DNA of 40,304 nt from an uncultured Desulfovibrio sp. (GTDB taxonomy: Bacteria > Desulfobacterota > Desulfovibrionia > Desulfovibrionales > Desulfovibrionaceae). The notes under the pieces are model-generated. The model ran no database searches. It had not been told where the DNA came from and saw only the letters and a program-made list of their open reading frames with translations. A program made the translations under genes and the position numbers. Where the stretch lies: NCBI GenBank assembly GCA_944324555.1, contig CALUWU010000067.1, positions 1 to 40,304 of the forward strand. Direction: 5' to 3'. Positions 2,294-39,990 of the stretch are shown here, piece by piece; the first letter of the stretch is position 1, and every line of letters begins with the position of its first letter.

Positions 2294-2352
2294 TTGAGGG
2301 GGGAAGGGGGAACCCTCTCGCGCTAGCTGAGGGTTCCCCCTTTCCCCCTCAA
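2294..2352. terminator. Long G-rich/C-rich hairpin after amrA
   Basis: Two 24-nt arms (2294-2317 and 2329-2352) pair with one mismatch around the loop tcgcgctagct. The hairpin begins 5 bp after the amrA stop, so it probably ends amrA transcription. The loop core recurs in the hairpin at 9589-9639, whose arms are different. It forms the outer end of the composite repeat 2294-2760. Confidence 0.75.
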
Positions 2353-2708
2353 ACTCCCCCCTTTCCCCTCCCAGCGCGCTTTTTCACAGCGTTCCTGAGG
2401 GCGTTCCGCAACGGAATCTGAAAACGTCCGCAAAGGCAAATCCAGAGCGTCCTGCCTTTGAAAAATGCGAGGTGCCGCCCGGCCCAAAACAAACGGAAAA
2501 GCCAGGCTTTTTTCTCGAAGCAACAGGCAGGGATTGAAAAACGCAACGCGTTTCAAACTGAAAATGCTCCAGGGTCAGAGCTTATGATCAAGATAAGTTT
2601 CCCTGCGGGCTAACATACAAAAAATACATATATCATTACATGTTACAACAACGTCCATCTTTACCCGTCAGCACAATATACGCGGGTTTTGGGGAAGATG
2701 GGGAGTTT

Positions 2709-2760
2709 GAGGGGGAAGAAACCCCTTTTTGCCGCAAGCAAAAGGGGTTTCTTCCCCCTC
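2709..2760. terminator. Perfect 21-bp hairpin downstream of ribB
   Basis: The arms at 2709-2729 and 2740-2760 are exact reverse complements around an approximately 10-base loop (tgccgcaagc). It lies 25 bp beyond the ribB stop on the minus strand, where it probably terminates transcription. It carries the same GAGGGGGAAGAAACCCC end sequence as the repeats at 9304 and 39582. Confidence 0.65.
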
Positions 2761-2785: not shown

Positions 2786-3468
2786 TTACTGCTTTTCGTA
2801 TTTTTGCCGCCAGAGAACAATGTCTTCCACGCTGACCAGGGGCATTCCCTGCTCGCGCGCAAAGGCCGCAATGCGGGGCAGGCGGGCCATTGTGCCGTCA
2901 TCGTTGGTCAGTTCGCAAAGAACGCGCCGCAGGGAGGCAGGCCGGCAAGACGCATCATGTCCACGGTTGCTTCCGTATGCCCCCGGCGCTCAAGGACGCC
3001 CCTCCCCCTGGCCCGCAACGGAAAGATATGACCGGGGCGGCGCAGGTCGCCCGGCTGCGCCCCCGCCCGTATGGCGGCCTTGACGGTCGCCACCCTGTCG
3101 GCGGCGGAAACGCCCGTGGTCACGCCTTCGGCCGCCTCGATGCTGACCGTAAACGCCGTCTGCTGCGTATTGGTATTTTGGGCGCACATGGGCGGCAGAT
3201 CCAGCGCGTCCGCATGTTTTTCGGTAAGGCAAAGGCAGACAATACCGCTGCAATGCCGAATCATCATGGCCATCTGACGTTCCGTCAGGCTGTGCGCGGG
3301 AAAGATCACGTCGCCTTCGTTCTCCCTGTCCGCATCGTCAACGACAAGAATGCCGTTGCCGTCTTGCAGGGCTGCCAGAGCGGCCTGCATGCGCTCCTCG
3401 GAAGAGCCGAAATCGTCAAGTTCGGAAGCAGAAGAAACGGAAAGGGAAGAAGGACAAATCTGATGCAT
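2786..3468 (-). pseudogene. ribB: 3,4-dihydroxy-2-butanone-4-phosphate synthase, frameshifted near the C-terminus
   Basis: RibB converts ribulose 5-phosphate to 3,4-dihydroxy-2-butanone 4-phosphate for riboflavin synthesis. The start ATG at 3468 has AAGGAG at 3475-3480. The acidic site [10 protein letters not shown], the [11 protein letters not shown] motif and [14 protein letters not shown] are intact. At about 2922-2936 the frame shifts: the original frame reads CGAFFAN and stops at 2908, whereas the shifted frame continues with the expected [14 protein letters not shown]...MPLVSVEDIVLW to a stop at 2786. The arithmetic fits one missing base or two extra bases. The intact second half suggests a recent mutation or a sequencing error. 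If real, the truncated protein lacks about 40 conserved residues, including the GTMAR motif, so another riboflavin source or gene copy would be needed. Confidence 0.8.
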
Positions 3469-3556
3469 GTTTGACTCCTTGCATGGTGAAACAGGCATCA
3501 GGGCGGGCAGAAAGGCAGACGCCGCCCGCAGGGGGCGCGCCCTCTTTCTTTGCAAA

Positions 3557-3700
3557 TTCTCTTTCATCCGGACTATAACCGTCGGCCTCGGAATTTCACC
3601 GAATCAGCTGCCTTTGCCGTGCAAAGCGCTCGCGGGCTTGCGGCATGCCGACGCGACATGCCCCTTACCGCCGGTGGGGACTTCCACCCCGCCCTGAGAA
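3557..3700 (-). promoter_or_regulatory. FMN riboswitch (RFN element) controlling ribB
   Basis: On the minus strand the conserved RFN blocks occur in order: agggcggggtggaagtcccc, accggcggtaa, agcccgcgagcg, gattcggtgaaattccgagg, ccgacggttatagtccggat and gaaagagaa. FMN binding normally shuts down riboflavin genes by termination or by hiding the ribosome-binding site. The 88 nt between the element and the ribB start contain a possible stem with gggc/gccc arms that could be the expression platform. Confidence 0.95.
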
Positions 3701-3707
3701 TGTCCAA

Positions 3708-4695: not shown

Positions 4696-4735
4696 CAAGA
4701 TTCTCCTTTGTAGCTCGTATGAAGAAAAGCATTAT

Positions 4736-4759
4736 GGGCAGGAGGAAGTCCGCCTGCCC
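4736..4759 (-). terminator. Possible terminator between receiver gene and dsbA-like gene
   Basis: A 7-bp stem (gggcagg at 4736-4742 with cctgccc at 4753-4759) is followed on the minus strand by cataatgcttttctt. It would end the receiver transcript before the oxidoreductase gene. Confidence 0.4.
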
Positions 4760-5175: not shown

Positions 5176-5202
5176 GGCAAGCCTTCTTTTTTAGATATTT
5201 TT

Positions 5203-5336
5203 CAGCTTGAAACGCTTTGTGTTTCAAGCCATGCGGCCTGTCGTTTCGCGGGAAAACGTGATTTTCCGCTTGTTTCTGGCCGGACGACGCGGCGGCGTCG
5301 CCTCATGTTTCACCCTTTTTAAAAGGCAAAACGTTC
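5203..5336 (+). repeat. Core module of the composite repeat, upstream of parA
   Basis: This segment aligns with the core modules at 39864-39988 (plus) and 2443-2545 (minus): a stem CTTGAAAC...GTTTCAAG, the block cggcctgtcgtttcgcgg, a stem GGAAAA...TTTTCC, a GC-rich stem and the end block aaaaggcaaaacgttct. The stems keep pairing although bases differ. It lies between the receiver gene and the parA promoter, and I see no coding frame in it. Confidence 0.6.
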
Positions 5337-9303: not shown

Positions 9304-9464
9304 TGAGGGGGAAGAAACCCCTTTGCTCTGCTGTCGATGCCCGTAGCTTCCTTCGTCGCAACGGGCACGGCCTGCGGCCGCCGTCGGGTCGCTGCTTACG
9401 GCAAAAAGGGCCCAGCCTTTCCGCAGCGAAGCGATGAAAGGCGTTCCCGTGGTTCCCCCTCAAA
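9304..9464. repeat. Long form of the G-rich inverted-end repeat, copy 1
   Basis: The element is bounded by exact 11-bp inverted ends, TTGAGGGGGAA (9304-9314) and TTCCCCCTCAA (9454-9464). Inside are a tgcccgt/acgggca stem and a gcctttc/gaaaggc stem. It is nearly the same as 39582-39745, and its first half recurs inverted at 27421-27509. It lies just upstream of rsmB, and I see no gene in it. Confidence 0.8.
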
Positions 9465-9639
9465 CTCCCCCATCTTCCCCCAAACCCGCGCGCCGTATCT
9501 GAACAGCCTGTCGCTTTGGGCCGGGCGGCGCGGCGCCGCCGCCCGTACTCGCGCTGAAAAAGCGCGCTGGGGAAGGGATGGGGGGCCTGGGGGGAAGGGA
9601 AACCCCTCTCGCGCTAGCAGAGGGGTTTCCCTTCCCCCC
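9465..9639 (+). repeat. Shortened core module plus terminal hairpin of the composite repeat
   Basis: After the tail actcccccatcttcccc, a shortened core follows (tttgggccgggcggc and gaaaaagcgcgctgggg, shared with 2372-2490). It ends in a 21-bp hairpin (9589-9609 with 9619-9639) around the loop cgcgctagc. This hairpin lies 44 bp beyond the minus-strand DUF116 stop and probably terminates it. The 408 bp between rsmB and DUF116 hold nothing else that I can identify. Confidence 0.65.
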
Positions 9640-9682: not shown

Positions 9683-10540
9683 TTACGCTGCACCCTCGTC
9701 CCGCGCCGTGAAGGGGCCGGACGTTCCCTCTTCCGCCGGCAACCCGAGAAAATGCCGGACGGCGGCTTCCAGAGGCCGCAGGGGAACAAGCGTATCCAGA
9801 CAGGGGCCGCAGGGGCGTTCATTGAGAATGCCGAAAACCGGCAGGGGGTAACTGTCCTGAATGCCGGAAGTCAGATCCCGCTCGCAGGCAACGGCGATGA
9901 TCAGCTTCGGACGGCGCTCAATGACAATGCGCCGCGCTATGGTGCCTCCCGTCGCAATGGCCATGCTGAAACCGTACTTGTCGCGCATGTCCAGAAGCGG
10001 CCCCACAGGACAGGCGCCGCAGCGCCGGCAAAGCTCCAGGGTATGCGTCAGGCGGTGCGGACAGGCGCTGCGCTGTATGCAGTGCGGCAGCAGCAGCAAC
10101 AACCGTTCGGGCGACGTTTTTATCCCTCGCGCCAGCACGAACTCGTTGTTCACCTTGATGAAGGAACGGCGCACCCGGGCGCGCTCCACATGCACGGCCT
10201 TGGCCAGCAGTTCCATCAGGGGAAAGAGCAGACGGATGGTCACATGCCGCACGGCCTCCACCCCGGGAAAGAGACGCGCCGTATAGATATGAAAGATCAG
10301 CGTGAGACAGAGCCAGAACAGGGCGGTGATCAGCGCGCAGCCCAGAACGAGGCTTATCAGACCGAGCCAGCGCAGATGTTCCCCAGAGACCGTCCACGGC
10401 AGCACAAGAAACAGGGCCAGCGCGCAGCCCAGCAGCAGGCACGCGCCCGAAAGCAGACCGAGAAAGATGCGCTTGCGACCGCCGCCGTAATGCGCCGAGG
10501 GCAAGACATAAGGGGACTTGCGTAAAAAGAACAGCTTCAT
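9683..10540 (-). CDS. DUF116 family membrane protein
   Basis: The 285-residue protein has two hydrophobic segments near residues 26-48 and 58-84, then a cytoplasmic cysteine-rich domain typical of DUF116. The pattern is LLPHCIQRSACPHR, CRRCGACPVGPLLDM, GGTIARRIVIERRPKLIIAVACERDL and RPCGPCLDT, so a metal or Fe-S site is plausible. The family often lies next to fmt/def/rsmB in Desulfovibrio-like genomes, as here, but its reaction is not known to me. A terminator separates it from fmt. The ribosome-binding site is weak, so the start (10540) is less certain than the family. Confidence 0.85.
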   Translation of the reverse strand: MKLFFLRKSPYVLPSAHYGGGRKRIFLGLLSGACLLLGCALALFLVLPWTVSGEHLRWLGLISLVLGCALITALFWLCLTLIFHIYTARLFPGVEAVRHVTIRLLFPLMELLAKAVHVERARVRRSFIKVNNEFVLARGIKTSPERLLLLLPHCIQRSACPHRLTHTLELCRRCGACPVGPLLDMRDKYGFSMAIATGGTIARRIVIERRPKLIIAVACERDLTSGIQDSYPLPVFGILNERPCGPCLDTLVPLRPLEAAVRHFLGLPAEEGTSGPFTARDEGAA

Positions 10541-27420: not shown

Positions 27421-27509
27421 GTTTGCGGCCGCAGGCCGTGCCCGTTGCGACGAAGGAAGCTACGGGCATCGACAGCAGCGCCGAGGGGGTTCCCTTCCCC
27501 CCAAACGAC
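27421..27509 (-). repeat. Partial copy of the G-rich repeat, inverted
   Basis: On the minus strand this segment carries CTGTCGATGCCCGTAG, the same loop as at 9330-9370, and ends in CGGCCTGCGGCCGC. The remaining half seen at 9385-9464 is absent. Its G-rich end (ttcccttcccccc at 27491-27503, plus strand) lies 26 bp from the MFS stop. Confidence 0.7.
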
Positions 27510-28672: not shown

Positions 28673-28765
28673 ATGAAACAGCGTTTCCTTGAATGAAAAG
28701 ACGGACGAAAAGCCCCGGAAGCAGTATTGCCCCTTCCCGGACGTCCGGAAAGGGGCAGCGTTATG

Positions 28766-28817
28766 AAGGGAAAAGGGGAAGAACCTTCGCCCGGGAGGGC
28801 CGGAATGGTTCTTCCCC
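28766..28817 (-). terminator. Terminator after DUF1097
   Basis: On the minus strand an 11-bp stem (ggggaagaacc with ggttcttcccc, 28817-28807 and 28785-28775) is followed by ttttccctt. A second hairpin with an acgt loop (28728-28757) lies just beyond. Together they separate DUF1097 from the MFS gene. Confidence 0.65.
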
Positions 28818-39516: not shown

Positions 39517-39581
39517 CGCGCCTCCACCCCTCTCCCCTTTCTCTTTCCCCATCGCCAGGCTCAGGACTCATTACGGTTTTC

Positions 39582-39990
39582 TTGAGGGGGAAGAAACCCC
39601 TTTGCTCTGCTGTCGATGCCCGTAAGGCGCCAGGGCGCCTGACGGGCACGGCCTGCGGCCGCCCGTCGGGTCGCTGCTTGCGGCAAAAAGGGCCCAGCCT
39701 TTCCGCAGCGAAGCGAGGAAAGGCGTTCCCGTAATTCCCCCTCAAACTCCCCCATCTTCCCCAAAACTCGCGCATACTATACAGGCAGGTAAAGATAGGT
39801 TTTTTGTATTATCCCGCAGGGAGACAGAACTTGATAATGAGTCCTGACCCTGGACGGTATTGCAGTTTGAAGCACAAATGCGTTTCAAACCATACGACCT
39901 GTCTGTCGTTTCGCGGAAAAAAGCGGTTTTTCCCTCGCCTTGGGCTGCCGCCTCGCGTTTCGCCTGTTGCAAAGGCAAAACGCTCTGTCT
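39582..39990 (+). repeat. Composite structured intergenic repeat, third main copy
   Basis: The long G-rich form with 11-bp inverted ends (39582-39592 and 39735-39745) is followed by the tail actcccccatcttcccc, gcaggtaaagat, CCCGCAGGGA (39813-39822), CTGACCCTGGA (39844-39854) and the stem-rich core ending in aaaggcaaaacgctctg. The order is that of the minus-strand copy at 2294-2760, without the final hairpin. The stretch 39517-40142 contains nothing else that I can identify; the frames open in it look non-coding. Confidence 0.75.

Follow-up and report, generated by a model that had tools for sequence, protein, structure and literature searches.

What are the folded repeats that lie between the genes of this stretch of DNA, and do they act as mobile elements, as RNA or in some other form? 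The window, by which we mean the whole stretch of 40,304 nucleotides analysed, is contig C67 of the 192-contig, 2.89-Mb draft genome (G000) of an uncultured Desulfovibrio. A first-pass annotation had described a single composite repeat with a fixed order of modules, with three copies (copy 1, 2294-2760; copy 2, 9304-9639; copy 3, 39582-39990) and two partial copies (5203-5336 and 27421-27509), all between genes. We found repeat DNA at all five sites, and our own reading of the list of open reading frames indicates that the sites likely are intergenic. The repeats are stacks of separate small elements. We rejected a single composite RNA because the modules also occur separately.

Separate elements in the repeats

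The repeats were abundant in the genome that contains the window. Copy 1 had at least 98 BLAST matches there (40 of 445 candidates scored) and copy 3 at least 66 (40 of 458 scored), where one element can give several matches. A motif search for the mirror motif of arm, linker and tail (CCCCTCAAACTCCCC) gave 63 + 65 = 128 occurrences in G000. The motif was present in 9/61 genomes of a genus sample, with 100, 94, and 43 occurrences in three close relatives and 4-22 in five more, and in 12/199 genomes of an order sample, four of the 12 being outside the genus. The exact tail was found in at least 66 stretches; among the matches listed, nearly all were gut Desulfovibrio MAGs (e.g., Candidatus D. 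intestinigallinarum) and two were unrelated taxa. The hairpin beginning GAGGGGGAAGAAACCCC and the tail AAACTCCCC(C)ATCTTCCCC that had been noticed in copies 1-3 are indeed there, at an abundance (BLAST and motif counts) far beyond chance, and the genome-wide search that might have found no further copies found many.

Alignment of oriented copies told apart at least five elements, E1, B, C, D, and E2 (Table 1). E1 consists of a left terminal inverted repeat (TIR), a T-rich spacer, the hairpin, AAA, the tail, an AT-rich core, and a right TIR, and is mostly ~195-230 bp long in its short form; long forms mostly measure 265-335 bp. Module B is palindromic (GAGC...GCTC, with TA on either side) and frequently abuts the right end of E1. 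Module C (72 nt) lies inside the hairpin loop and module D (~40 nt) within the 3' arm of the hairpin; because D interrupts the arm, only a 9-bp stem is left beside the linker in copies 2 and 3. The tail of copy 1 has a one-base deletion. E2 is a second type of hairpin plus tail, opposite to E1 in copies 1 and 2.

Table 1. Positions of the elements and their parts in the window.
Feature	Positions	Strand	Remarks
Copy 1 E1 hairpin, short form without loop insert	2709..2760	-	
Minus-strand stop codon TAA near copy 1 E1 hairpin	2786-2788	-	
Copy 1 third-strand tail	2682..2705	-	CTCCCCATCTT-CCCC-AAAA-CCCGC, one C short of consensus
Copy 1 linker	2706-2708	-	AAA
Copy 1 right TIR of E1, degenerate	2572..2589	-	GATCATAAGCTCTGACCC
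Copy 1 module B, palindromic element	2445..2569	-	GAGC...GCTC; alone, TA-flanked, at G022 orthologous site
Copy 1 E2 (second-type) hairpin	2296..2350	+	sense to plus-strand frame ending at 2288
Copy 1 E2 third-strand tail	2354..2379	+	CTCCCCCCTTTCCCCTCCC-A-GCGCGC
Copy 2 E1 hairpin, long form	9305..9461	+	modules C and D inserted
Copy 2 E1 loop module C; arm module D; 3' arm	~9326-9397; 9411-9450; 9453-9461	+	
Copy 2 E1 third-strand tail	9465..9489	+	linker AAA 9462-9464
Copy 2 E2 hairpin	9589..9639	-	GGGGGGAAGGGAAACCCC.../...CCCCCC; sense to minus-strand frame ending at 9683
Copy 2 E2 third-strand tail	9562..9585	-	CCCCCCATCCCTTCCCCAGCGCGC; linker AGG 9586-9588
Copy 3 left TIR of E1	39558..39575	+	GGCTCAGGACTCATTACG
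Copy 3 E1 hairpin, long form	39584..39743	+	module C core 39610-39660
Copy 3 E1 module D; 3' arm	39693-39732; 39735-39743	+	
Copy 3 third-strand tail	39747..39771	+	linker AAA 39744-39746
Copy 3 right TIR of E1	39833..39850	+	GATAATGAGTCCTGACCC
Copy 3 module B	39852..39985	+	limits approximate; abuts right TIR
Module B alone	5198..5336	+	limits approximate
Truncated E2: loop module C and 5' arm (27485-27502), without 3' arm or tail	27427..27502	-	

This anatomy changes how the parts of the supposed composite are to be read. The three copies do not share identical modules, as copy 2 is without the segment with GGTAAAGAT, CCCGCAGGGA, and CTGACCCTGGA. In copies 1 and 3, what was called the "stem-rich core" comprises the right half of E1 and, after it, module B, and the "closing hairpin" of copies 1 and 2, taken to be the closing part of one unit, is E2 in opposite orientation. 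The two partial copies are repeat DNA, but the first contains module B alone and the second is the 5' arm and loop module C of E2.

The stacks differ among orthologous sites. At the gene next to copy 1, the related genome G022 (gene 79% identical) has only module B, located at the TA of the stop codon, contrary to one composite with a fixed order. By eye, none of the modules was seen at the orthologous site in G006, G021, G008, and G023. Because G022 has B alone and these four genomes have none, the stack was either built by separate insertions or lost piecemeal. E1 is absent from the site in G022, yet the site is not reduced to one clean TA. At the gene next to copy 3, G022 and G020 both have a degenerate version that lacks a TIR but retains the tail, part of B, and the hairpin together with modules C and D. 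The presence of module C is the main difference, and a clean one, between two loci (L104 and L112) at one orthologous site, over the stretch shown. The concern that the modules had become neighbours by chance is not borne out for the copies, of which there are many, but the modules are separate elements. Elsewhere in G000, contig C82:53-955 (L270) carries a gene copy that is nearly identical to that of G022 and 79% identical to the window's own; the MAG therefore probably includes some DNA of a related species, and some of the G000 elements may come from there.

The ends of E1 identify it as a miniature transposon (MITE) of the IS5 family. The ends read GGSTCAGGACTCATTA and TAATGAGTCCTGACCC, are inverted repeats of 16-18 bp, and have TA on the outside. 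A search for both ends, with up to 4 mismatches, gave 89 rows, in which most elements appear once per strand; the flanks were TA/TA in 32/89 rows and TA plus CA or TG in 22 more. The target-site duplication that the first-pass annotation proposed to look for would be this TA, which is too short for proof in single cases. A PF13340 search of the nine carrier genomes led to an 828-bp, TA-flanked element in G022 (L315) and in a second related genome, G043 (L306). Its ends (GGCTCAGGACTCATTA) are the TIRs of E1, with one base different at one end in L306, and two open pieces of it match DUF4096 (53 bits) and DDE_Tnp_1 (35 bits). E1 is like the IS5-family (DUF4096/DDE_Tnp_1) insertion sequences and MITEs in its TIR and TA duplication; it is unlike the 828-bp element in its interior, which by eye was not found there, and the reading frames are interrupted in both copies of the larger element. 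The window's own genome had no PF01609 match and a single, sub-threshold PF13340 fragment. We rejected an IS630-type transposase (PF13358) as the parent: it is in 3/9 genomes and had no matching end pair in the fetched loci. The first-pass annotation was thus right to call the repeat MITE-like as far as E1 goes, and E1 is only part of it. When up to 4 mismatches and a distance of up to 45 nt were allowed, a left TIR preceded 15/28 hairpins in G000, 11/28 in G022, and 2/5 in G186, and 0/89 hairpins in G006, G042, G043, G050, G057, G199, G201, and G223. We regard the copy number, the MITE nature of E1, and the piecewise assembly as well supported and very likely correct.

Several smaller features accompany the elements. 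Locus L066 (~4712-4741) has a minimal form, a 30-bp palindrome in which the two E1 TIRs are joined head to head. Runs of N lie inside elements at L138 and L169 (G057), as assembly gaps at a strong hairpin or masked stretches, and several MAG contig ends fall in elements (e.g., L024, L042, L058, and L079). Rfam found only an FMN riboswitch and two tRNAs above the gathering score in the window, with no match in the repeats; the riboswitch (3552-3705, minus strand) is upstream of the gene that ends beside copy 1.

Covariation of the tail with the stem and apex

The kernel of these elements is a hairpin of ~17-24 bp (more with C and D inserted), a 3-nt linker, and the tail. The lower 5' arm consists of purines only (GAGGGGGAAGAA), and the tail that follows AAA reads CTCCCCCATCTT. 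With the two in parallel register, there is a code in which tail C stands at stem G-C and tail T (or A) at stem A-T. We propose that the tail would line the whole stem as a third strand, with its end paired to the apex, forming a pseudoknotted intrastrand triple helix.

The tail followed the lower stem base by base. The test set comprised 68 unique arm/tail pairs with 47 distinct arms from nine genomes; only positions 8 on were scored, as the search pattern fixes 1-6, and a hairpin partner was required. Loci with no detectable hairpin, with N, with a pyrimidine run <9, or selected by the exact tail were left out of the covariation tests, and the G000 loci had been found by similarity to copies 1 and 3, tail included. 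The code was valid in 78.3% of 438 cells, versus 52.9 (sd 2.3; maximum of 5000, 61.2) for permuted tails and 40-59% in six shifted registers, and in 77.8% with the exact-tail-selected loci put back. A further 29 pairs from four other genomes, some of whose elements share descent with the first set, were valid in 74.0% of 169 cells (permuted 53.7, sd 3.4, maximum 66.9), and the nearest register, -1, gave 62.7%. The permutation statistics ignore shared ancestry; for 37 family representatives, whose 5' arms differ at >2 of 22 positions, 83.7% of 208 cells were valid (permuted 54.7, maximum 68.3). At position 11 of the E1 stem, A or G goes with tail T or C, with T:C counts of 46:2 and 11:12, respectively, over all 71; among paired hairpins, A-T had tail T in 30/30 (30:0) and G-C had tail C in 7/15 (8:7).

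The geometry was also found without selection. A generic finder applied to 400 kb of the complete genome G006, sampled without selection, gave five matches with this geometry; it gave none in the reversed sequence and none in any of three triplet shuffles. For the window, the counts were five matches and, in the reversed sequence, none. One hairpin with a mirror tail from this finder, at 28763-28817 (minus strand) near the end of a minus-strand frame, may be due to chance. Readings of the tail as a direct repeat or as an antiparallel partner of the arm were rejected: the mirror match was longer in 44, equal in 18, and shorter in 6 of the 68 pairs, and no tail of the direct-repeat type was seen in the loci scanned.

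The upper stem follows the same code after a skip of one base. In short hairpins, the upper 5' arm has a C-run and then a T-run, and its counterpart in the tail is a C-run and then an A-run. We surveyed hairpins of 34-75 nt (long forms with module C out, tail-selected loci in), and of 129 unique hairpins, 123 were parsed and 120 had an A-run. The A-run begins one base ahead of the T-run in 97/120, and the two runs have equal length in 89/120 (4-4 in 55, 3-3 in 11, 5-5 in 10, and 1-1 in 13). With the one-base skip, which was noticed on the same data later used to test it, C stood at C in 242/277 cells and A at T in 211/220 (84 unique pairs; upper C/T run required, tail-selected loci left out). 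This amounted to 91.1% valid, versus 59.2 (sd 2.1) for permuted tails, and four other offsets were worse. The 37 representatives gave 86.6% of 217 cells (permuted 53.3, maximum 66.4).

The end of the tail also matches the hairpin apex. Within the eight bases that follow the A-run, the stretch complementary to the apex is on average 4.54 nt long (permuted 3.39, sd 0.16, maximum 4.07) in 28/37 representatives, the other nine having no usable apex or A-run. Apex and tail end covary as GCGG:CCGC, GCGA:TCGC, AGAGC:GCTCT, AACGCG:CGCGTT, and AGCGCG:CGCGCT. The lock would compete with the top pairs of the stem, because in many stems the apex as defined contains them. In G006, G057, and G201, second-type tails (e.g., at L129 and L156) end in AGCGCGCTTTAT, and TTTAT recurs after the apex-pairing bases across several genomes. 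This covariation is strong support for a third strand that follows stem and apex, which we hold to be highly probable.

Orthologous gene ends gave results that depended on divergence. Six orthologous pairs had <85% identity; two loci are counted twice among them, so the pairs amount in effect to four sites. They had two-sided stem differences at 14/30 positions. The tail differed too at 12 of the 14, all 12 were valid in both genomes, and both uncompensated changes were at one site. Some of these differences are probably replacement by another family rather than point changes. Among 36 close pairs (>=85% identity, positions 8-12; 4/40 pairs skipped), the tail followed 2/14 two-sided stem changes, one of them valid in both genomes, and the triplet was broken in at least one genome by 23 changes on one side of the stem, 4 in the tail only, and 1 mixed, indicating that recent change is mostly uncompensated. 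Over 25 orthologous pairs, identity was 90% in the tail, 89% in the 5' arm, 92% in the 3' arm, 80% in the spacer, and 62% in the right flank, where the first bases of arm and tail were chosen by the search pattern.

The folding strand and known triplex repeats

The third-strand code is more easily read on the template DNA strand. Read as its complement, the third strand has G on G-C pairs of either orientation; at A-T pairs of the lower stem it has A or T, and at T-A pairs of the upper stem it has T. The lower stem would then have the antiparallel purine motif (G.GC, A.AT, and T.AT), after which the third strand would skip one base where the purines change strand and continue as parallel G/T triplets in the upper stem (G.GC and T.AT). 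The apex pairing would lock it. Tail A, i.e., third-strand T, is found in 36/239 cells at stem A-T and 3/263 at G-C, and these exceptions represent few events because most are at one or two positions. Tail T, which would be third-strand A, was absent from T-A pairs of the upper stem (0/220), consistent with a parallel motif that excludes A. In sense RNA, such positions would be mismatches. The upper part would correspond to the parallel G/T motif; by the title of one paper (PMC4807104), G.GC and T.AT reportedly fit poorly in parallel triplexes, which counts against the fold. On the sense strand, the stems have 20 G.T, 33 A.C, and 44 other mismatches, with no sign of G-U tolerance (6/95 hairpins skipped). 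We therefore favour the template DNA strand, and DNA is probably the strand that folds.

Bacteria are already known to carry intrastrand triplex repeats: Holder et al. (2015, PMC4666352), who refer to work by Hoyne and Maher, describe the potential intrastrand triplex (PIT), BoxC, or TM_ECO elements in E. coli and elsewhere, and the antiparallel purine and parallel pyrimidine third-strand rules are stated in the main text of that paper. Under those rules, the lower part of the present kernel is, on its predicted triplets, the antiparallel purine motif. The elements are like PIT as described there in that third strand, purine segment, and pyrimidine segment are on one strand with valid triplets, in that there is a purine motif on one strand and a pyrimidine motif on the other, and in being G/C-rich, repeated, and intergenic. 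The E. coli PIT element studied, according to the same text, is class II, with 9-nt stems, very high sequence identity, and no strand bias, and no link to mobile elements was found; in-cell footprinting gave no sign of a triplex. The present elements differ from it: on the template strand they have the class I order (third strand 5'), they are longer, their hairpin continues past the first ~12 triplets, their predicted third strand switches purine strand, and an apex lock is predicted. They also covary among diverged families, lie mostly just behind stop codons, and are partly carried by a MITE. The 3-nt linker fits the ITxF search rule for PIT (loops 1-6 nt), but in most of the present hairpins the upper hairpin separates the purine and pyrimidine segments. 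From their predicted triplets, the elements would work like the PIT motif but lie outside the published ITxF rule. The main text of PMC4666352 does not mention Desulfovibrio.

The elements resemble two other groups in part. H-type pseudoknots with triple helices are found in telomerase RNA and SAM riboswitches, including SAM-V. They share with the present kernel a hairpin, pairing of loop and tail, and a strand along the stem groove, but they are made of RNA and their triple stretches are short, whereas the present kernel is a dispersed repeat with ~20 predicted triplets in DNA. REP/BIME, BOX, and Correia-type repeats are short palindromic intergenic repeats, modular and in many copies, as are the present elements, which differ from REP in the third strand and in having no association with a Y1 transposase in the genus sample. 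In the open-access library searched, no paper listed appears to describe such elements, nothing was found on "alternate-strand triplex", and papers matching both Desulfovibrio and MITEs were, by title, unrelated.

The E. coli element described in PMC4666352 is nearly invariant, so comparison could not test its fold. The dozens of diverged families here provide a comparative test, in which the tail follows stem and apex, and the formation and relevance of intrastrand triplexes in bacteria become directly testable. A strand-switching triplex with a lock would be a new fold, and the MITE shows how a transposon can spread such structures. If correct, the triple helix would have been recognized by three-way covariation, not by sequence likeness.

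Position behind genes and competing explanations

The elements lie mostly just behind genes and in the sense orientation. By gene calls from a simple hexamer model, 201/227 instances were outside predicted genes, with the upstream gene on the same strand in 121, on the opposite strand in 50, and not seen in 30; a second gene list put 38/227 inside frames. Where the upstream gene is on the same strand, the median distance from stop codon to hairpin start is 25 nt, and the hairpin begins within 40 nt in 84/121. By the second gene list, this distance was 24-26 nt in 26/80 cases in the clade with E1 and 4-34 nt in 22/34 in the other genomes. Between codirectional genes, 47 of 72 elements were sense and 25 antisense; 41 were between convergent and 22 between divergent genes. 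Where an E1 copy has a same-strand gene end <=60 nt upstream, the stop codon TAG is the target TA plus the first G of the TIR in 21/26.

Canonical intrinsic terminators were not depleted at gene ends with an element (32/112, versus 80/293 without; in the G006 sample, 0/2 versus 34/132). We rejected the hairpin itself as an intrinsic terminator, as there is no U-tract after it; AAACUCCCC is there in copies 1-3 and in all loci picked by motif. A replication-strand bias was rejected as well, with 8 leading and 9 lagging among 17 elements of G006 (by eye, from the GC skew of twenty samples).

The sequences establish the copy number, TIRs, TA sites, covariation, position, and orientation of the elements; we infer that the kernel folds in cells, that the folding strand is DNA rather than RNA, and that the fold is a roadblock. 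Transcription would open the duplex, the template strand would fold, and RNA polymerase would be obstructed just behind the gene. In the window's clade, IS5-family ends (E1) enclose the kernel and insert at TA, often that of a stop codon, which becomes TAG because the TIR begins with G; module B and the loop and arm modules C and D stack onto E1. We consider the triplex kernel, its packaging in E1, and the template-strand roadblock to be the best explanation as a whole, with about an even chance of being correct. It is plausible, if somewhat short of probable, that this is a selected natural DNA fold, i.e., a strand-switching intramolecular triplex of ~20 triplets, locked at its apex, acting as a template-strand roadblock behind genes and spread by a MITE. 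As a use for the fold, the roadblock is the likeliest, but a tentative one. A related E. coli element had no terminator activity in earlier tests, as told in the main text of PMC4666352, which counts against it. The undepleted canonical terminators, the antisense share between codirectional genes, and the mostly uncompensated changes in close orthologous pairs also speak against the explanation as a whole.

The sense transcript might fold instead, as an H-type pseudoknot in the 3' untranslated region with the tail in the stem groove, shielding the 3' end of the mRNA from exonucleases. The sense orientation and the short distance past stop codons would suit such an RNA, whole copies fold far better than shuffles (z of -7.4, -4.1, and -6.7), and the pairing of apex and tail is equally possible in RNA. 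Its third strand, however, would be mostly C, requiring protonation, and would place tail A at A-U pairs instead of G-C pairs; in the upper part, C would be required on C-G antiparallel, for which we know of no standard triple. With G.U not enriched on the sense strand (20 versus 33 A.C) and no Rfam family in the window's repeats, we find this RNA a live but unlikely rival; the first-pass suggestion that retained folding fits an RNA was right about the folding, and the third-strand code, the G-U counts, and Rfam favour a DNA fold. RNA could also be involved through Rho: the C-rich, G-poor tail (one G in 25 nt of the consensus) would load Rho in a portable terminator whose hairpin stops 3' trimming, with the mirror a by-product of pyrimidine-richness. 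The location after stop codons is as expected for this, but base-by-base agreement with the stem, matched lengths of T-run and A-run, and the apex complement are all unpredicted, and we think it improbable.

The elements might be purely selfish, with a fold that aids dispersal (e.g., in a single-stranded intermediate) and survival because insertion at the TA of a stop codon is harmless. High copy number in few genomes (9/61), the TIRs and TA sites of E1, and its preferred spacing and TAG stop codons fit this well. Against it, kernels without the left TIR of E1, in the eight genomes listed above, also sit behind stop codons, and kernels without TIRs are kept at orthologous gene ends with the tail better conserved than the right flank (partly pattern-selected). 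There was also no link to a Y1 transposase. Pure selfishness is likewise a live rival, in our judgment about as doubtful as the sense-strand RNA. A G-quadruplex, with the four G-runs of the template strand as the conserved feature, is hardly credible: 134/210 instances have four runs of >=3 with loops of 1-7 (53 of the 210 being tail-selected loci), but the motif is in 0/11 instances of G223, 0/3 of G199, and 5/20 of G050, and it predicts neither hairpin nor mirror agreement nor apex complement. It was rejected as the defining feature since it is not universal. We also rejected the REP sequence of a RAYT, as PF01797 is in 5/9 carriers (one a fragment) and 30/52 non-carriers. At one place in G050 (C46, ~72001-74207; L187/L188), two of the putative triplex elements flank a Y1 transposase gene (72443-72799).
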